Below are positions 19,347 through 29,414 of a stretch of 42,286 nucleotides of DNA, in pieces (position 1 is the first letter of the stretch; each line of letters begins with the position of its first letter). The DNA comes from an uncultured Ectothiorhodospiraceae bacterium. GTDB taxonomy: Bacteria; Pseudomonadota; Gammaproteobacteria; UBA6429; Thiohalophilaceae. Below the pieces are notes generated by a model. The model ran no database searches. It had not been told where the DNA came from and saw only the letters and a list, made by a program, of their open reading frames with translations. The position numbers and the translations under genes are program-made. Location of the stretch: NCBI GenBank assembly GCA_947258695.1, contig CAMYJG010000019.1, forward strand, positions 1 through 42,286. The letters run 5' to 3'.

Positions 19347-20366
19347 TTATTCAAATTCAATTGACTCAGCAATTAACTTGCCATTTTGAATTTCTCCTTC
19401 AACTTCGAGTTTAACTCCTACCAATATACCAGATACAGCAGAAGCGGTACCCTCATAGGTAGTGGTTGTCTCGACCTGAACGGTGACACCACTTAGTTCG
19501 AAGGTACATGGCGCAGTCGCTCCACAAGCCGTCGACGCAAGACCTTCTACTTCAGCTTTATATCCTTCCAGCTCTGGATTACTTTCATCAAAACTTTCAT
19601 CTTCAAGTTCCACGTTTTCTAATGCTGTCAGTAGATCAGAGCCGTTAAAGGTACCTTTTGCTTCAATAAACTGGCCATCAAAACTCGTTATATCCTGACC
19701 AATTCCAGATGTTGAAATCCTTAACCCGCCAATTTGTAACTCGTACTGACTGTTTACTGAGGCAACCCCTTTTATTTCAAACTTATCTGCAGGCTGATAC
19801 GTATCTTCTTTTTTCTCAATATAAGCGGCTTGTATCTCACCGTTAGTTTCTCTAAAGCCACTTATCTCAACCACTTGTCCATCAGCAATATCGCCTATAC
19901 CTGTCAGGCCATCATCATAAATGGTGGTATTAGAAACGTTCACAGTTTGTCCAAGTGCAACAAAACTGGTGGCACCCGCACCTGGTGTACCCACTACAGG
20001 ACCTTCAAGAATATCTTCATAAGATATGGTTTCAGCAACCCCTGTCACGCCATCATCATTTATTGTGCCGACAACGGTTACCACCATGCCTTCACTTAAG
20101 TATGCAGCCAGTTCTGTTGTATCATCAGACTCAATGGAATTTAAAGTAATGGCCCCTGCTTCATCATCTTCTTCTATGACTTTTGCACCCGATGTACTGA
20201 ACTCAACGCCGTTAACCCAAATACTACCAAATGCAGTGACTGATCCACTCGAGATGCCCGTGCCACCGATACCACCTTCTGAAACCTGGGTACCACCGCC
20301 ACCACAACTGGCCAGCAGCATGCCGATGACTAATCCGATAATGCTATTACTAATTCGCTTGAACAT
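19347..20366 (-). CDS. DUF5666 lipoprotein, downstream of DUF6502
   Basis: The ATG at 20366 (339 residues) follows AGAGGG by eight bases; the GTG at 20375 is an alternative. The lipobox LLASC gives an Lgt-modified Cys followed by GGGG. The rest is a chain of repeated beta modules with the signature of DUF5666 (GSVTAFGSIWVNGVEF, then ISGF, LQIGGLRI, LEVEGEIQNGKLIAESIEFE). Acidic residues prevail. It overlaps the end of the DUF6502 gene by 17 bases, so it is read from the same message. It probably sits on the outer membrane or in the periplasm; no activity is known for the family. Confidence 0.88.
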   Translation of the reverse strand: MFKRISNSIIGLVIGMLLASCGGGGTQVSEGGIGGTGISSGSVTAFGSIWVNGVEFSTSGAKVIEEDDEAGAITLNSIESDDTTELAAYLSEGMVVTVVGTINDDGVTGVAETISYEDILEGPVVGTPGAGATSFVALGQTVNVSNTTIYDDGLTGIGDIADGQVVEISGFRETNGEIQAAYIEKKEDTYQPADKFEIKGVASVNSQYELQIGGLRISTSGIGQDITSFDGQFIEAKGTFNGSDLLTALENVELEDESFDESNPELEGYKAEVEGLASTACGATAPCTFELSGVTVQVETTTTYEGTASAVSGILVGVKLEVEGEIQNGKLIAESIEFE

Positions 20367-21186
20367 CTTCTTCACCCTCTAATACATCTTCTTCGAAATA
20401 GTAGATGCCCAGGCCGGCGTGTTTTCTGCCGCTGCCTGTGATTTGTGGATTACTATCACGATCTTGTTTGACTAAATAACGATTAATTTCTTCTAAAAGT
20501 TCCTGGGCTTTATCACGACTGAGCTCACGTAGTTGAGGAAGTATTTCCTCAGGTAAGTTGTCGTAAGCCACTTTTCGCTGAAAAAGTGGTTTCTCCTGGG
20601 TATTCTCAAGATTATGATCAATCGTATTAATTAATAACGCCACATCTGTGCCAAGAATATACATTTTCTCTTCTTCACCCTCGGCCGGCACATAAGCATG
20701 AGTCAGTAGTTTTACTTCATCATTTTTAAGTTCAACGGCCTTAACCCGAACCAGTTCATCAAGAACAGCACGCACTGGCATATCACCACTGTATGCTTTA
20801 ACCAGTTCGGCAAAACTATTTTTACCCTCAAGGTGTAAAACTGCCGCTTCACCTTCTGCATCGATAAACTGTTTATCCCTAAGCCAACCAGAAATCACCC
20901 TTGCAGCACGGTTATATTGGCGTGCTATAGCCTCATCATCAGGTGTTTCAATAGACTCAATCCGGGACACTTCTTTTCGCGATAAACCGGTCAGAACCGA
21001 CACCCTTGAAACGGTTTGCTTACGCCCGGGAACCGCAAATTCCTTGTCCGCCACGTCGACATAAACCCATTTGGCCAGATCAGAAAAAGTGCCATAGGAA
21101 ATACCGTGACGCAGTAATAATCGTACTAATGGTCTTAGCATGCGTAATATGGCTGCTGATAAGGCTTTTGTTACTTTTTGGGTCAT
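20350..21186 (-). CDS. DUF6502 protein, likely DNA-binding
   Basis: The ATG at 21186 gives 278 residues; TTG at 21195 is better spaced from an AGGG and remains possible. N-terminal region: LRPLVRLLLRHGISYGTFSDLAKWVYVDVA, followed by SRVSVLTGLSRKEVSRI, which has the look of a helix-turn-helix recognition segment. The middle and C-terminus are helical and acidic. DUF6502 proteins are frequently next to DUF5666 lipoproteins; here it lies between two of them and overlaps one. I infer a transcription regulator of the locus; this is not proven. Confidence 0.82.
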   Translation of the reverse strand: MTQKVTKALSAAILRMLRPLVRLLLRHGISYGTFSDLAKWVYVDVADKEFAVPGRKQTVSRVSVLTGLSRKEVSRIESIETPDDEAIARQYNRAARVISGWLRDKQFIDAEGEAAVLHLEGKNSFAELVKAYSGDMPVRAVLDELVRVKAVELKNDEVKLLTHAYVPAEGEEEKMYILGTDVALLINTIDHNLENTQEKPLFQRKVAYDNLPEEILPQLRELSRDKAQELLEEINRYLVKQDRDSNPQITGSGRKHAGLGIYYFEEDVLEGEEDVQAN

Positions 21187-21315: not shown

Positions 21316-22563
21316 TTAAAGTTTTATTTTTCTTTCCAGCTTGATCGCAATTCCGCTGTCAGGATCAACGTAAACTTCAACGGTTTCATCATTGTTCAGA
21401 TAGGTCAGGTTGAATTTACTGACATTGGCTGTGCTATCGTCTTCCATAATGGTCGTGTTATTCACGGTTACATTCACTGGACTTGCACAATTCACAGTCA
21501 GCGTTCCAGAATTCATTTCACCTGGTGTCAGCGACAAGTTAGATACCGTCCCGGTACACTCAGTGTTATCTGAAATGTCATCTTCAAACTCAACAGATTC
21601 TGCAAGCAAAACACCATTTTCAAAGTGTCCTTCGACTTCAAGGTAAAGTTTGCCAAGCATATTGGTATCTTCCATTGCGCTTTGTAATGTAGTCACACCA
21701 TCCATTTCTTCAAACTCGGTAGTGTTGCTAACCTGGACTTTTTGCTCACCAACCATAAATTCATTATTAGAAAGAACAGAAGCGAGTACACCATAGATTT
21801 CGACTTCTTCATCATCATCACCGTGGTAACCCAGTTTGCCACCATCTTCAATTTCAATACTGGTTACTTGTTTACTGGTATCAAACTTAACTTCAACCAG
21901 AAGGCCATCAGTAATAGTGAATCCAAGAGGGGGAAGCGATGAGTAATCAATAGAAAGGGCACCGATATCAAAGCTGCCAGTGATAGGGCTTTGTACGACA
22001 CCTTTAAGCTCAAGTTCACCAATGTATCCGCTTAACGTCGTCGCTTTAACTTCGATACGGGTCGCCAAAATCGTACCTTGCTCTGAGGTGTAACCATGTA
22101 TTTCAACAATATGATCGGCGACAATATCCGCCAGTGTCGCAACTGAACCGGTATAATCTTCAAACGTTGTCATATCGGTAATTGTTACTGTTTGACCCAT
22201 AACAACCATCGTGCCATCCGTCGCAAAAGAATTGCTGTCTACCCAGCCTTCTAGTTCATCAGCAGAAGTGATCGAGGTCGCCGTGCCCGTGGTGCAGTTT
22301 GCTGAACCCGTTACAACAACAACATCACCAACTGATAAATCATCCTCGCTTGCACTTTGTCCATCAACGTAAATACTTGCGGAATCAGTTTCGTATTCAC
22401 AACCATTGACATAAACACTGCCAAACCCGGACACAACACCCACTGTTTTATTAGCTGCTGGAGCAGTATTTGAGCCAGTGCTGCTGCTGCCGCCTCCGCA
22501 AGCGGACAAACCGAGCGCAGCGACGACTGCAAGACTGACATACGATAATTTTGAGATATTCAT
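21316..22563 (-). CDS. DUF5666 lipoprotein, upstream copy
   Basis: The 415-residue lipoprotein has the lipobox LGLSAC and a Gly/Ser-rich tether. It has DUF5666 modules: VGVVSGFGSVYVNGCEYET, VVTGSANCTTGTATSI, VMGQTVTITD, LKGVVQSPITGSFDIGALSI, LEVEGHFENGVLLAESVEFE. It shares the VNG(C/V)E and ENG.LLAESVEFE blocks with the other DUF5666 protein at 19347 but is longer by about 70 residues at the C-terminus. It has its own upstream region with palindromes and its own terminator. Likely on the cell surface; function unknown. Confidence 0.87.
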   Translation of the reverse strand: MNISKLSYVSLAVVAALGLSACGGGSSSTGSNTAPAANKTVGVVSGFGSVYVNGCEYETDSASIYVDGQSASEDDLSVGDVVVVTGSANCTTGTATSITSADELEGWVDSNSFATDGTMVVMGQTVTITDMTTFEDYTGSVATLADIVADHIVEIHGYTSEQGTILATRIEVKATTLSGYIGELELKGVVQSPITGSFDIGALSIDYSSLPPLGFTITDGLLVEVKFDTSKQVTSIEIEDGGKLGYHGDDDEEVEIYGVLASVLSNNEFMVGEQKVQVSNTTEFEEMDGVTTLQSAMEDTNMLGKLYLEVEGHFENGVLLAESVEFEDDISDNTECTGTVSNLSLTPGEMNSGTLTVNCASPVNVTVNNTTIMEDDSTANVSKFNLTYLNNDETVEVYVDPDSGIAIKLERKIKL

Positions 22564-22774: not shown

Positions 22775-23143
22775 TTAAGCGAAATGTTTATAGGCAATCA
22801 GACCCCAGATCACTGCCACATTAACGAGTGACAGTAATACAGCTGCTGAACCAATGTCCTTAGCCCGGCCTGAAAGGGTATGCAATTCACCACCGAAACG
22901 ATCCACCACCGCTTCGATGCCTGAATTTAATAACTCAACGATCATCACCAGTATCACACTACCAATCAACAGGCTAAGTTCGACGGCATCGGTCGTGATC
23001 CAAATTGCAAGCGGTACCAGAACGACGGTTAGTGCGAGTTCCTGGCGAAAAGCCGCTTCATATTTAAAGGCGGCTTTAAATCCTTTCCAGGAATAGCCGG
23101 CAGCATTAATAATTCGAGTTATGCCTGTCGCACCAGGTTTCAT
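22775..23143 (-). CDS. dgkA: Diacylglycerol kinase
   Basis: The 122-residue membrane kinase phosphorylates diacylglycerol to phosphatidic acid. The signature is ELLNSGIEAVVDRFGGELH with the catalytic Glu residues, plus three hydrophobic helices and an N-terminal amphipathic part (RIINAAGYSWKGFKAAFKYEAAFRQE). Length equals that of E. coli DgkA. It starts 38 bases after gcvPB on the same strand, so it may be the last gene of the glycine-cleavage transcript, an unusual companion. Confidence 0.96.
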   Translation of the reverse strand: MKPGATGITRIINAAGYSWKGFKAAFKYEAAFRQELALTVVLVPLAIWITTDAVELSLLIGSVILVMIVELLNSGIEAVVDRFGGELHTLSGRAKDIGSAAVLLSLVNVAVIWGLIAYKHFA

Positions 23144-23181: not shown

Positions 23182-24648
23182 TTAAGCTTGTTGTTGTTTC
23201 CAGGTGAGATCTAATTCTTTAGCCGCTTTAACATCATCCAGTCTTCTTACTGGTAATGTATAAGGCGCACCCTTCACTTTTTCAGCATCGGTTTCCGCTT
23301 CTTTTTGAATTGCTATCATCGCTTCGATAAAACCATCTAAGGCATCTTGTGCTTCAGTTTCAGTTGGCTCAATTAAGAAACATTCCGGAACCAATAGTGG
23401 AAAGTAGGTGGTTGGTGCATGGAAACCATAGTCGAGCAAACGTTTTGCGAAATCCATGGCATTTACATTCAACTCTTTAGCCTGTTTTTTCAGGGTAACG
23501 ATAAACTCATGTGTCGCTTTACGATTAGGGAAAGCCAGTTCAAAACCGGCAGCCTCAAGCTTCTTCATCATGTAGTTTGCATTCAAGGTTGCGTATTCAG
23601 CAACCCGCTGCATACCATCACGACCGAGTAAACGAGCATAAATATAGGCACGCAATAACACACCCGCGTTGCCCATAAAGGCAGATAAACGACCGATACT
23701 ATTCGGGTTATCCTTTTCAGTGATAACCTGGTATTCATCACTAACTTTTGTCACCATCGGTACAGGTAAGTAAGGAATCAAGCGTTCACTGACACCCACC
23801 GGACCAGCACCTGGACCACCACCACCATGTGGCGTTGAGAACGTTTTATGCAGGTTCATATGAATAACATCAAAGCCCATATCACCCGGTTTAACTTTAC
23901 CTAAAATAGCATTAAGGTTGGCACCATCGTAGTAAAGTAAACCACCGGCCTTATGCACGATATCGGCAATCTCTTTAATCTTACGTTCAAAAACACCAAG
24001 CGTTGATGGATTGGTTAACATGATACCGGCTGTTTGTGGTCCAACTGCTTGTTTCAGTGCATCAATATCTACATCACCATCGCTATTAGTTGGAATTTCC
24101 CGAACTTTAAAGTTACACATGGTCGCCGTTGCCGGGTTAGTGCCGTGTGCCGCATCGGGTACTAAGATTTCGGTACGTTCTGGATCGCCTTTACCACCAT
24201 TTTGCGCATCATGGTAAGCACGAATCATGGCAACTCCGGCAAACTCACCTTGCGCACCGGCCATCGGTGATAATGAGACTTCTTTCATGCCCGTTACATC
24301 TTTTAAGATTTCCTGTAAGTCATACATACAGCTTAAGAAACCCTGGCTCATATTAACGGGACTATCCGGATGACGGTTTAAGAAACCCGGTAACATGGAT
24401 AATGAATTACAACCACGTGGGTTGTATTTCATGGTGCATGAACCTAACGGGTAAAAATGCGTATCGATAGAAAAGTTTTTCGTTGAAAGCCGGGTGTAAT
24501 GACGCACGGCCTGCATTTCTGATACTTCGGGTAATAACGGTTTATCGTTACGTAAAAATTCAGCTGGAATATCTGAAACTGCTTTAGTACCTGCTGGTTG
24601 CTGTGCAGTATTTACCCGACCATTTCTTGATTGTTCAAAAATTAACAT
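23182..24648 (-). CDS. gcvPB: Glycine dehydrogenase (decarboxylating) subunit 2
   Basis: The 488-residue protein is the C-terminal half of the P protein in split form. The PLP-binding lysine is Lys268 in [18 protein letters not shown]. Other blocks: [52 protein letters not shown]. Together with GcvPA it decarboxylates glycine and passes the aminomethyl group to the lipoyl arm of GcvH. It is separated from gcvPA by 198 bases holding a repeat with inverted ends. Confidence 0.98.
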
Positions 24649-24690
24649 CGTGAACCTCTGTTATCTTTTTAATATACTTTATTTAAAGCT

Positions 24691-24800
24691 GTCATTGCAC
24701 CCAGAGAACGGGCATAAACGATGGAACAAAGTGACTGCAGCAATCTCATGGTTGACTACATTTTCATGGAGATTGCTTCGTCGTTCCTCCTCGCAATGAC
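24691..24800. repeat. REP-like element with nested inverted repeats
   Basis: Outer ends GTCATTGC (24691-24698) and GCAATGAC (24793-24800) are inverted, and inner ends GCAATCTC (24740-24747) and GAGATTGC (24769-24776) are inverted again. The minus-strand start GTCATTGCGAGGAGGAACGA resembles a repeat type common in gammaproteobacterial intergenic DNA. It fills the gcvPA-gcvPB gap. Confidence 0.8.
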
Positions 24801-24846
24801 GCGTATTTTTTTAAGCCATATTTGGATTAAATGGACTCGAATAAGT

Positions 24847-26208
24847 CTATGAGTTCTTCGTAATATCTATAACTAAATCAGCATACATTTGTAAGTCTGC
24901 ATCAGTTTTGGTTTCGGTAGCACATACCAACATGACGTTACCTAGCTCTGGATAGTCTTCACTAATATCGACTCCCGGTAGTATCCTTTTTGCTGACATT
25001 GCATCCATCAGCTGATCTGTCGGTAACTCAAATTGCATAACTGACTCATGGAACAGCGGACGATTAAACAAACGTTTCGCTTTGCCGGTTGCTTCCAACT
25101 TATCTATCAGATCTACAGTATTGTTATGACAAGCATTCGCCACTTTAGACAGGCCATCCGGTCCAACCAGTGACATATAAATTGTTGCAGCGGTAACCAG
25201 TAAGCCCTGGTTAGTACAAATGTTTGAGGTCGCTTTAGAACGACGAATGTGTTGTTCACGCGCTTGCAGCGTTAAAGCAAAACCTTGCTTACCATCGAGA
25301 TCAACAGTACGGCCAATAATACGCCCTGGCATTTGGCGCACATAGGCTTGACGGCAAGCCATAAAACCAAAGTAAGGGCCGCCAGACGATAATGGCGCAC
25401 CTAAAGGTTGTCCTTCACCACAGGTAATATCCGCACCTTTATCACCCCAACTACCCGGTGCTTTTAATAACGCCAAAGAAGTTGGGTTAACCACCGCAAT
25501 CACTAATGCTTTATGTTCATGTGCCCAGTTGGTTAAGGCATCGATATCTTCTAGCACACCAAAGTAATTCGGTTGTGGAATCACTAACGCAGTAAAGTCA
25601 CCCGGATCTTTTGGTAAACTCTCAGGATCAATAAAGCCACCGTCCATATCAAAGTCGAGCTCTTCTAAAGTAATGCCCTGACCTTTAACGATGTTGTGCG
25701 CGACCTTACGATAAGCCGGATGCACAGTTCGTGGCATAAAGATACGTTTAGATTTAGATTTCCGGTTAGCACGAACAGCCATCAATACCGCTTCAGCCAG
25801 TGCAGAAGCCCCGTCATACAAAGATGCATTAGAAATATCCATGCCGGTTAAACTGGCCATCATGGTTTGGTATTCATAAAGTAGCTGCAATGTACCCTGG
25901 CTCGCTTCAGCCTGGTAAGGTGTATAAGCTGAATAGAATTCACCACGTGTCGTAATTTCCCAGACAGCCGCTGGTATATGATGTTCATAAGCACCCGCAC
26001 CGGCAAAACATAAGGTACGCGAATCCTGCTGCGCACGTTCATGCATAATACGAGAGAGTTCCATTTCACTGACGCCTTCGGGTACTTTGGTTAACCCTTC
26101 AGCACGCAACTCGTCTGAAATTTCATCAAATAAATCTTCAATACTATCAACACCAATGGTATCGAGCATTGATTTCACATCTTCTTCTGTATGAGGAATA
26201 AACGGCAT
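24847..26208 (-). CDS. gcvPA: Glycine dehydrogenase (decarboxylating) subunit 1
   Basis: The 453-residue protein is the N-terminal half of the split P protein. It has family blocks [18 protein letters not shown]-like ([15 protein letters not shown]), [50 protein letters not shown] and SNICTNQGL. It is needed with GcvPB for glycine decarboxylation. Length matches split forms of about 445-450. The intergenic DNA on each side holds palindromic elements. Confidence 0.98.
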
Positions 26209-26289
26209 TACTTTTTACACCTTAGTAATTTTTGATTTCTTTTGAATATCTTGCTCTGCAAGATATAACGACATTTAGTTAAATGAGGA

Positions 26290-26398
26290 TAAATGGATTC
26301 TGAAGAGGCAAAAATAATTTAAAAAACGGAGCTTACAATTAGTAAGTGAGCAGTTTTAAATTATTTTTAACGTGTTCAGAATGTATTTAGACCATTTA
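26290..26398. repeat. Palindromic repeat, copy A (gcvH-gcvPA gap)
   Basis: A perfect 15-base inverted pair (26310-26324 with 26354-26368) flanks a core at 26327-26352 identical to copy B near 28058. The conserved margins are GGCAAAAA on the left and TTTTTAACG on the right. Outer ATTCTGA/TCAGAAT and TAAATGG/CCATTTA pairs extend the hairpin. Confidence 0.88.
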
Positions 26399-26406
26399 AA
26401 TATATG

Positions 26407-26802
26407 TTAATGATCTTCTTCGGCTACGATCTCTGCATACTCTTCATGACCCATCAGCTCATCAAACGCACCGCCATCTTCTGGCTTAAGCTTGAAGATC
26501 CAACCATCACCGTATGCATCATGGTTAATTGTTTCCGGGGCATCAGCTAAAGCTTCATTACCTTCAATGACTTCGCCATCAACTGGGCAGTAAACATCAG
26601 ACGCCGCTTTTACTGATTCAATAACGGCGCAATCATCACCCGATGAAAAGGTATCTTCTGCTTCCGGGGTTTCTACAAAAACTAAATCACCTAACAGGCC
26701 CTGGGCATGATCTGTAATACCAACCGTTAACGTGCCATCTTCTTCACGACGAACCCATTCATGTGATTTTGTATAGCGTAACTCGTCAGGAATATTGCTC
26801 AT
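26407..26802 (-). CDS. gcvH: Glycine cleavage system H protein
   Basis: The 131-residue lipoyl carrier has the lipoylated lysine Lys65 in [11 protein letters not shown]. Other blocks: [40 protein letters not shown]. It carries the aminomethyl group from P to T protein. It is made on one message with gcvT and gcvPA, and its lipoyl group depends on the octanoyl-to-lipoyl step made by LipA at the head of the operon. Confidence 0.98.
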
Positions 26803-26888: not shown

Positions 26889-27971
26889 CTATAAACAAGA
26901 TTTTCCGTTCCTCACAAATGGTGGCTTAACGACTAGTGCATCGATCTGTTTACCACGCATTTCAATTTTACATTTGTCGCCGGTTTCTTTCGGCACACGC
27001 GCAAAAGCGATTGCCTGGCTTAAGGTAGGAGAAAAGCTACCACTTGTTACTTCACCATCGGCTAAGCCATCAACAACCACTTTCTGATGATTCCTGATTA
27101 CACCTTTGCCTTGCAGCACTAAACCAACTAACTTATTTTTTGCACCCTGCTCTTTTTGTTTTGTTATTGCAGTTCGACCAATAAAATCACGCTCTACTGG
27201 TTCCCATGCCACGGTCCAGTTTAAACCACATTCAAGTGGTGAGATTGTTTCATCCATATCACTGCCATACAGGTTCATGCCTGCTTCTAAACGTAGTGTG
27301 TCACGTGCGCCTAAACCACAGGGCTTAACATCCGCTTCAAGTAAACGCGTCCATAATGCAGAGGCGTCTTTTTCCGGCAGCATAATTTCGTAACCGTCTT
27401 CACCGGTATAGCCTGTACGTGCAACATAGCTGTCGCCGTATTCACGAATAAAAAATGGCTTCATATCACCGAGTTTTTCTTCCGCATCATTGCCTAACGC
27501 TTGATGTGCTTTTGCCCGGGCATTAGGTCCCTGTACTGCAATCATGGCATAGTCATCACGCTCAGTAATCTCGACACCAAATGCTTCAGCCTGCTTATTA
27601 ATCCAGGCTAAATCTTTTTCACGCGTTGACGCATTAACCACTGTGCGATAAAAAGTGTCGTTAATATAATACGTAATCAGGTCATCGATCACGCCACCTT
27701 GTTCATTCAACATACATGAATAAAGTGCTTTGCCCGCATCTTTTAAACGCGCCACATCATTCGCCAATAACTTTTGTAAAAAGGCTTTTACCTTGTCACC
27801 TTTCATATCAACGATGGTCATATGTGAAACATCAAACATGCCGGCATCTTTGCGGATGAAATGATGTTCATCAATTTGCGAGCCATAGTTTATTGGCATA
27901 TCCCAGCCACCGAAATCAACCATGCGCGCATTTAATGAAACGTGTAAATCATGTAATGCTGTTTTTTTCAT
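26889..27971 (-). CDS. gcvT: Glycine cleavage system T protein (aminomethyltransferase)
   Basis: The ATG at 27971 gives 360 residues and starts [20 protein letters not shown]; the TTG at 27992 is not needed. Motifs: [50 protein letters not shown] and the C-terminal [16 protein letters not shown]. It transfers the methylene group to tetrahydrofolate, giving methylene-THF, which feeds ThyA among others. It lies between lipA and gcvH. Confidence 0.98.
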
Positions 27972-28008
27972 TTTCAATTCACTTTTTGTCAAATTATGTG
28001 AGGTGACT

Positions 28009-28131
28009 CTACGGGCTATGAGAAGCTAGAGAACAAGGCAAAAACATTATGAAAAAGCGGAGCTTACAATTAGTAAGTGAGCATTTGAATAATGTTTTTA
28101 ACGCCGTTATCTAGTTTCTCATAGCCCGTAG
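28009..28131. repeat. Palindromic repeat, copy B (lipA-gcvT gap)
   Basis: The outer 16-base arms CTACGGGCTATGAGAA/TTCTCATAGCCCGTAG (28009-28024, 28116-28131) and an inner 11-base pair (28040-28050, 28089-28099) surround the core 28058-28083 that is identical to copy A for 26 bases. The left margin GGCAAAAA and the right TTTTTAACG are also shared, but the arms differ from copy A. Confidence 0.9.
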
Positions 28132-28133
28132 TG

Positions 28134-29054
28134 TTAGCTCTGAATTTCTTCTGCGTGGTATGAAGACCTCACCATCGGCCCTGACTTCACCCATGAAAAA
28201 CCTAACTCATTTGCTATTTTTCCATACTGCTCAAACTGTTCTAACGCAACATATTCTTTAACCGGTAAGTGATAACGAGTTGGGCGCAAGTACTGTCCCA
28301 TCGCGATACGTTGCACACCCACACTGCGTAAATCTTTTAATACTTCTGTCACCTGTCCTTCGGTTTCACCCATGCCCATCATAATCGCAGATTTGGCTTC
28401 AATGCCTTCTTGCTGGACAGCTAACTCGAGCATTTTTAATGAACGTTCATAGTTTGAGCCTTTGCGTACTGTTTTATATAACTCGGGAATGGTTTCAACG
28501 TTATGTCCCCACACCATTTGCGTTTCTAATGAGTCGCACTTTACTTGATTTAATTGAGACATGATGATGTCAATCGCCTCTTGCTGACAGCGATTAAAAT
28601 CAGGTGTTAATAATTCCAGGCCAATATCATGTTTATCCTGGCGTAACGCGGTTATGGTATCAGCGAAAATTTTCGCACCACCGTCTTTCATATCATCACG
28701 ATTAACGGATGTCAGGACGATATAATCCAGTCCCATTTCTTTTACTGCATTAGCGATACGTTGCGCTTCTTCATCATCAAACCAGGTCGGTTTACCTGTT
28801 TTAACATTACAAAAACCACATGCGCGGGTGCAGGTTTCGCCCAATAACATAAACGTGGCGGTGCCACTGGACCAGCATTCATTCCGGTTAGGACAGGATG
28901 CTTCTTCACAAACAGTATTTAATCCATTGGAATGGACTGCACGTGCGGTATCAGAATAACGAACATCAGTTGTCAATGGCTGACGGATCAATAACGGCAC
29001 GCGCAAGGCATTAGGTTCATGAGAATGATCAAAAACTGGAATTGGTTTTTTCAT
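28134..29054 (-). CDS. lipA: Lipoyl synthase
   Basis: The 306-residue radical-SAM enzyme inserts two sulfurs into octanoyl chains on GcvH and other lipoyl proteins. The auxiliary [4Fe-4S] cluster ligands are Cys49, Cys54 and Cys60 (CEEASCPNRNEC), and the SAM cluster ligands are Cys75, Cys79 and Cys82 (CTRACGFC). The C-terminal SGPMVRSSYHAEE holds the conserved RSSY serine that ligates the auxiliary cluster. It is the first gene after the glycine riboswitch, 40 bases beyond the terminator, so its expression follows glycine. In most gammaproteobacteria lipA lies with lipB; no lipB is in the window. Confidence 0.98.
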   Translation of the reverse strand: MKKPIPVFDHSHEPNALRVPLLIRQPLTTDVRYSDTARAVHSNGLNTVCEEASCPNRNECWSSGTATFMLLGETCTRACGFCNVKTGKPTWFDDEEAQRIANAVKEMGLDYIVLTSVNRDDMKDGGAKIFADTITALRQDKHDIGLELLTPDFNRCQQEAIDIIMSQLNQVKCDSLETQMVWGHNVETIPELYKTVRKGSNYERSLKMLELAVQQEGIEAKSAIMMGMGETEGQVTEVLKDLRSVGVQRIAMGQYLRPTRYHLPVKEYVALEQFEQYGKIANELGFSWVKSGPMVRSSYHAEEIQS

Positions 29055-29094
29055 GCTAATTAAGATCTCTGGATCATTTTTATATCAGTTAAAT

Positions 29095-29154
29095 AAAAAA
29101 AGGGCGACGCCATATCACTACCATGCGATCAATGTAGTTAATATCGCGTCGCCC
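29095..29154 (-). terminator. Riboswitch-controlled terminator
   Basis: The nine-base stem GGGCGACGC (29102-29110) and GCGTCGCCC (29146-29154), extended by ATATC.ACTAC/GTAGT.TAATAT, is followed on the minus strand by seven T (29095-29101). It starts one base from the 3' strand of the second aptamer's P1, so glycine binding can control it. Its position before lipA argues for a transcriptional ON/OFF switch; direction is inferred from known glycine riboswitches. Confidence 0.85.
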
Positions 29155-29359
29155 CTCTGTCCTGATGCCTGAGAGCTTGAGCCCCTTCGGCGGATCTATA
29201 ATAATCTAGCATACTGCGAAACTAAATTATAAAAACCTCTCTCCAGAGTCGATTCGGAATTTAATACTATTCCTTTCCAGCGGTCCTTTTGCCTGAGCGT
29301 TTCCGGACGGGTTGCGCCTTCGGCGTTTTCCTTTTATCTAGGAAAACCTCTCCCACTGG
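29155..29359 (-). promoter_or_regulatory. Tandem glycine riboswitch (two aptamers)
   Basis: Read on the minus strand, aptamer 1 (29359-29277) has GGGAGAGG, CGCCGAAGGCGC and GCTCAGGCAAAAGGACC. Aptamer 2 (29248-29155) has GGAGAGAGG, CCGCCGAAGGGG and CTCTCAGGCATCAGGACAG. These are the conserved cores of the gcvT/glycine riboswitch. CTCTG/CAGAG (29244-29248 with 29155-29159) closes P1 of aptamer 2. A long, AT-rich stem lies between the GGAGAGAGG and CCGAAGG blocks of aptamer 2. It controls the operon lipA-gcvT-gcvH-gcvPA-gcvPB(-dgkA). Confidence 0.96.
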
Positions 29360-29373
29360 GTGCTAAATCGATG

Positions 29374-29402
29374 TCTATATTTTACGCGTGGTTAAGGATC
29401 AA
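29374..29402 (-). promoter_or_regulatory. Promoter of the glycine operon
   Basis: On the minus strand, TTGATC (29397-29402) and TATAGA (29374-29379) stand 17 bases apart. The start of transcription would be near 29366, just before aptamer 1. The promoter begins 13 bases from the fbpB stop. Confidence 0.65.
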
Positions 29403-29414
29403 AACCAGTCTAAA

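Follow-up and report, generated by a model that had tools for sequence, protein, structure and literature searches.

The window, that is, the whole stretch of 42,286 nucleotides that was analysed, is contig C19 of the source assembly (3.2 Mb in 164 contigs, 95% complete). The closest named relatives by LipA (67–86% identity) are MAGs that carry the label Gammaproteobacteria or Chromatiales. Two glycine aptamers lie on the minus strand, followed by a terminator with seven T and then by lipA2, gcvT, gcvH, gcvPA and gcvPB. An earlier note on this DNA had described the same succession, with lipA at the head of a gcv operon under a glycine riboswitch. The RF00504 matches, the fold and the protein profiles, whose matches lie in this order on the minus strand, agree with that description. 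The features are as follows:

29379..29407, minus strand, candidate promoter TGGTTT-17-TAAAAT (common to five sister MAGs, spacing 16 or 17)
29271..29365, minus strand, glycine riboswitch aptamer 1 (RF00504, 66.4 bits)
29147..29256, minus strand, glycine riboswitch aptamer 2 (RF00504, 49.5 bits)
29095..29155, minus strand, expression platform: intrinsic terminator (sequence, fold, comparative platform analysis)
28134..29054, minus strand, lipA2, lipoyl synthase of the glycine-riboswitch clade, 306 aa (TIGR00510, NF009544, tree, catalytic residues)
27990..28133, minus strand, inverted-repeat element in the lipA2/gcvT gap, outside the conserved operon (fold)
26889..27971, minus strand, gcvT (NF001567, TIGR00528)
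26407..26802, minus strand, gcvH, lipoyl acceptor (NF002270, TIGR00527)
24847..26208, minus strand, gcvPA (NF001696)
23182..24648, minus strand, gcvPB (NF003346)
22775..23143, minus strand, gene 3′ of gcvPB (tblastn homologues behind gcvPB in relatives)

The last gene has a homologue behind gcvPB in 15 of 16 loci of the same order and 12 of 20 loci of the class (tblastn). Its product gives no match to the NCBIfam profiles; we take it to be diacylglycerol-kinase-like. Further along, two DUF5666 proteins (19347-20375 and 21316-22563), presumably with lipoprotein-like starts, flank a DUF6502 gene.

The lipA2-gcvT gap (27990-28133) and the gcvH-gcvPA gap (26209-26406) hold inverted repeats with an identical 26-base core (28058-28083 and 26327-26352). 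The first is predicted to fold stably (27990-28136, −56.3 kcal/mol, z −10.25). The core occurs in only 5 of 185 loci, four of which are copies of the window's own stretch, so the repeat is treated as an insertion and a regulatory role was rejected; in the source genome it may affect how the mRNA is processed between lipA2 and gcvT. The gcvPA-gcvPB gap (24649-24846) contains an imperfect inverted repeat starting CGTCATTGCGAGG, which presumably resembles dispersed repeats; the one pattern built for it gave no match.

The leader and the proposed switch

Both aptamer matches exceed the RF00504 gathering score of 32, and the source genome has no RF00504 match besides these two. The leader has tandem aptamers and one expression platform. 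The terminator, visible in both sequence and fold, is a hairpin GGGCGACGC/GCGTCGCCC (29154-29102) followed by seven T (29101-29095). It consists of a 9-bp GC-rich base stem and an upper stem, and the 3′ strand of an extended aptamer-2 P1 runs into its 5′ side. It does not appear in the output of the consensus scan, whose loop limit is 3–8 bases. The promoter proposed in the earlier note is kept as a candidate: the consensus scan lists none near aptamer 1 on the minus strand, but the TGGTTT-(16 or 17)-TAAAAT pair (29407-29379) recurs in the window and five named sister MAGs (two further alignment rows were left out of this count). From the position of this pair, transcription is expected to start on or near the first base of aptamer 1.

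The platform was compared across 55 distinct LipA2 loci, in 52 of which the 3′ end of aptamer 2 is visible. A strong terminator, defined as at least 8 uninterrupted pairs starting at the end of aptamer 2 and then at least 4 T, is present in 44 of the 52 leaders and missing under this rule in 8, compared to 0.4 expected from shuffled tails. Together with the recurrence of the arrangement in all 37 riboswitch-bearing genomes of the order (see below), this indicates more than chance. In 40 of the 52 leaders the outer strands of P1 stand in pairing register; slid registers give 2, 0 and 2. The bases of the outer P1 are needed for the terminator as well, so that competition between the two forms is expected, in keeping with a glycine-ON switch. 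The inner five P1 pairs are structurally compatible with the terminator, and the exclusion of one form by the other depends on the outer pairs. These are mostly invariant, with little compensatory change across the leaders, so that covariation is no proof of the exclusion.

We propose that, in the absence of glycine, the terminator would form and most transcripts would end before lipA2. In its presence the aptamers would fold and the extended P1 of aptamer 2 would capture bases of the 5′ side of the terminator; with these bases held in P1, the polymerase would read through into lipA2. Lipoyl synthase would then be produced along with GcvH, the carrier protein of glycine cleavage that depends on lipoyl. 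The expected competition between P1 and terminator would fit ON polarity of the lipA2 leader, and riboswitches in the gcv context are described as ON switches in PMC6944388. The reverse, an OFF switch, or a relic in which glycine fails to raise readthrough, is very unlikely. In its favour, aptamer 2 of the window has two mismatched P1 pairs and an inner P1 that could coexist with the terminator; besides the polarity described for gcv-context switches, it is opposed by the retention of aptamers in front of lipA2 in 12 families and of a terminator, at a constant place, in 44 of the 52 leaders. Under the ON reading, glycine probably controls the cofactor enzyme jointly with its acceptor GcvH, as the earlier note had it.

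The LipA2 clade and its distribution

The window protein scores 339.7 bits against TIGR00510, above the equivalog cut-off of 310.25. The hallmarks of LipA are three N-terminal cysteines, the radical-SAM cysteines and a C-terminal RSSY. C49, C54, C60, C75, C79 and C82, as well as R296-S-S-Y299, are kept in both LipA clades, and LipA2 is predicted to act as a lipoyl synthase. In a tree of 86 LipA that includes the E. coli protein, the 55 LipA2 proteins are set apart from the rest by a branch with an SH-aLRT of 100; the tree is a quick one without bootstrap, and some outgroup rows have long branches. Several alignment columns distinguish the two clades. On the sequence evidence, LipA2 is a paralogue of the ordinary, lipB-linked LipA.

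The order sample comprises 40 genomes from one family code and 18 genus codes, in which the coordinates of RF00504 and TIGR00510 matches were paired by hand. RF00504 is found in 37 of the 40 genomes, and in 37 of these 37 a lipA reading frame lies directly downstream on the same strand (contig ends interrupt it in G015 and G017; complete copies score 335–360 bits against TIGR00510). The three genomes without the riboswitch (G003, G008 and G019, which are 66, 86 and 70% complete) also lack lipA2. The order lipA2-gcvT-gcvH-gcvPA-gcvPB is found in 15 of 16 loci, L084 stopping after gcvH.

The class sample comprises 275 genomes with a completeness of at least 85%, and stricter filters were applied for RF00504, which is found in at least 115 of them; LipA is found at E 1e-30 in at least 260. 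Among the matches listed, LipA2 proteins are 56–100% identical to the window protein and the others at most 49%; LipA2 occurs in at least 25 of the 275 genomes (13 family codes), and the riboswitch lies directly upstream of lipA2 in 21 of these 25 (12 family codes). The lipA2 of G072 is cut by a contig end, so that its upstream region cannot be judged. No riboswitch was found at lipA2 in G242, G229 and G110, even at E 0.5 (3 of the 55 distinct LipA2 loci). The five-gene order occurs in 19 of the 22 class loci examined, one of which, L174, has its gcvPB truncated at a contig end; L164 and L188 stop early at contig ends and L166 has only lipA2-gcvT. The other three of the 25 genomes belong to the order set. 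Among 249 genomes sampled from the phylum and searched for LipA at E 1e-78, LipA2-like identity is seen, besides the window genome, only in G483 (57%), which is of the same class and has one aptamer upstream of lipA2; the LipA of G354, from another class, is 48% identical to the window protein.

The earlier note had called the coupling of lipA to glycine uncommon and suggested a survey of glycine riboswitches next to lipA. This survey, with lipA directly downstream in 37 of 37 cases in the order and riboswitch-linked lipA2 spread over 12 family codes in the class sample, shows instead a conserved arrangement.

Lipoyl supply where only LipA2 is found

A second type of lipA, lipA1 (416–449 bits against TIGR00510), is present in 21 of the 40 genomes of the order, 20 of which also have lipA2. 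Where genomes carry LipA1, 19 lipB loci have lipA1 directly behind lipB, mostly with genes that we take to be dat and ybeD in front. In E. coli, lipA is one gene behind lipB and ybeD is on the other side of lipB. The earlier note's remark that lipA sits with lipB thus applies to the ordinary gene of the relatives, but the window gene belongs to a separate clade: it lies on the opposite side of the support-100 branch and is not beside lipB. The note had also named, as grounds against its reading, a second lipA that shows this one to be specialised. Both types do coexist in 20 of the 40 genomes, but only one lipA was found in the window genome. LipA2 would be a second, glycine-linked lipoyl synthase in Gammaproteobacteria; the ordinary lipB-linked lipA is present as well in many of them. 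A second TIGR00510 match in the source genome (C43, 24.5 bits) was rejected as a lipA, since it is BioB (TIGR00433, 422 bits).

In the TIGR00510 profile search of the assemblies, lipA1 was not found in 19 of the 40 genomes: 8 of 8 in the genus of the window, 4 of 4 in g3, 4 of 4 in g16, and G015, G017 and G024. One of the 19, G036, is rated 100% complete. A lipA fragment of 275 bits in G015 was discarded as a canonical lipA, being the C-terminal part of the broken lipA2 with gcvT behind it. Neither type was found in G003 and G008. Among the class matches listed, lipA2 occurs without lipA1 in G000 (the window genome), G206, G303, G242, G129 and G109. Ten lipB loci from three genera (L016, L100, L101, L112, L113; L096, L099, L105; L123, L124) have no lipA behind lipB, though about 0.7–1.5 kb of sequence is present there; this neighbourhood evidence covers the three genera, and G015, G017 and G024 supply none. 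The lipB of the window genome lies on a different contig and is not followed by a lipA.

It is very unlikely that a canonical lipA is present in the window genome but was missed, with LipA2 serving GcvH alone everywhere. The source genome is in 164 contigs and 95% complete, and six of the 40 assemblies (G003, G010, G017, G024, G033 and G034) even have neither lipB nor any PF21948 match, which leaves room for a missed gene; the uniform absence in three genera, including the complete G036, and the ten lipB loci with sequence behind them argue against it. When the presence of lipA1 is mapped on the LipA2 tree, at least 5 changes are required with all 54 scored rows, and 3 when only the ten better-supported absences are kept. 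Ordinary lipA appears to have been lost in the genus of the window and in at least two other lineages. In these genera lipB is kept but ordinary lipA was not found, which leaves LipA2 as the only lipoyl synthase detected.

Of the 35 loci that have both gcvPA and gcvPB, 21 contain a thiol peroxidase gene (NF001808; L076, 7341-7841) between the two. It is absent from the window, L005, L083, L088 and L167, where no lipA1 was detected, and from nine loci with lipA1; it is present in two loci without lipA1 (L163 and L174).

The window genome has one LipB and one PF00198 protein, which is the E2 of pyruvate dehydrogenase (PDH; TIGR01348, 627.5 bits, cut-off 552.1) and adjoins the end of aceE. The frame after it matches dihydrolipoyl dehydrogenase with 392.8 bits, under the cut-off because the locus ends there. 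No LplA/LipL/LipM-type gene was detected, PF21948 giving only LipB in the 34 of the 40 genomes with any match. A relay in which LipA2 acts on GcvH and a LipL/LIPT1-type enzyme transfers the lipoyl group to PDH was rejected on this basis, though an enzyme outside the known types might act as such a relay. The idea that loss of canonical lipA follows loss of the 2-oxoacid dehydrogenases was not borne out either: PF00198 matches above 220 bits are found in 9 of the 19 genomes without detected LipA1 (G000, G005, G009, G011, G013, G014, G017, G033 and G036) and in 8 of the 21 that have LipA1, the identity as PDH E2 being established for the window genome only. Many genomes of the order also have PF00198 matches of ~157–175 bits inside frames of about 600–1060 aa, unlike the usual E2 proteins.

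With a PDH E2 present and no ligase-type gene detected, a genome with lipA2 only should need LipA2 for PDH, and where ordinary lipA was lost the glycine-controlled copy would have to supply the other lipoyl enzymes, including PDH. We infer this dependence from gene content, and a missing contig or another enzyme could break it. PDH would suffer if a sole lipoyl synthase were switched off at low glycine, and basal readthrough must therefore be assumed.

Constitutive supply of lipA would be expected in lineages without LipA1, and the riboswitch might rule the gcv genes while lipA2 is mostly independent, if the terminator leaks or the leader contains a promoter; glycine would then not limit lipoyl synthesis. 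In family f91, both sampled genomes lack LipA1, one of them (G242) also lacks the riboswitch, and the other (G129) has a stem of 6 pairs. Only 40 bases separate the T run from the lipA2 start in the window, which leaves little room for a promoter, and the consensus scan finds none there on the same strand. Moreover, strong terminator stems are kept in 16 of the 19 leaders from genomes without detected LipA1, compared to 28 of the remaining 33 (which include one, that of G483, without lipA1 scoring). Independence of lipA2 is therefore unlikely. The f91 locus without riboswitch or lipA1 is L166; its family mate keeps the aptamers in front of the shortened stem, and glycine control may have been relaxed in these leaders once lipA2 was alone.

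The reading we prefer, a tandem glycine-ON switch with a terminator that drives the lipA2-gcv operon, the lone LipA2 also serving PDH, is given a probability of about 0.77. That glycine actually sets the lipoylation of both PDH and GcvH through the riboswitch, in the genus of the window and several other lineages, is a more tentative proposition, which we hold to be possible but somewhat doubtful.

Significance and comparison with known systems

With this operon, cofactor synthesis joins the glycine riboswitch regulon, and a LipA lineage is seen to travel with the glycine cleavage genes. Genomes with two lipA may have one general and one glycine-linked enzyme. The lineages with LipA2 only would be a natural experiment, in which either all lipoylation tracks glycine or the switch has been relaxed; both are testable. 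A sole glycine-switched LipA2 would amount to an amino-acid switch on the entry into central carbon metabolism.

No report of lipA in a glycine riboswitch operon was found in the open literature searched, and mention in tables is possible: lipA has no occurrence in the main text of the regulon surveys PMC3766115, PMC6944388, PMC2258182 and PMC12452182, and no such operon was seen to be reported in passages of PMC4035088, PMC9495176, PMC13104608, PMC2848557, PMC12674515 and PMC9723716. No riboswitch for lipoic acid is known according to PMC9971707.

Canonical gammaproteobacterial LipA, from the dat-ybeD-lipB-lipA region, and LipA2 belong to one enzyme family, with the catalytic cysteines and RSSY in both, but the canonical proteins are only about 40–47% identical to the window protein and form a separate branch. 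Most LipA2 have ACGFC, VWGHN and YLRP where canonical LipA has RCPFC, VFNHN and YLQP, and their gene context is a riboswitch and the gcv operon. The nearest solved structure by sequence is PDB 4u0o (E 6.2e-74), lipoyl synthase 2, presumably from Thermosynechococcus elongatus, which also carries the name of a second lipoyl synthase.

An example of a tandem glycine riboswitch operon (RF00504) is gcvT-gcvPA-gcvPB of Bacillus subtilis. The window has in common with the gcvT operons of this type the two aptamers with one platform, the terminator, the glycine cleavage genes downstream and the split gcvPA/gcvPB, and differs from them in that its first gene encodes a lipoyl synthase. The arrangement is real and conserved, and extends the glycine riboswitch operon to the making of the lipoyl cofactor by way of a separate LipA lineage.
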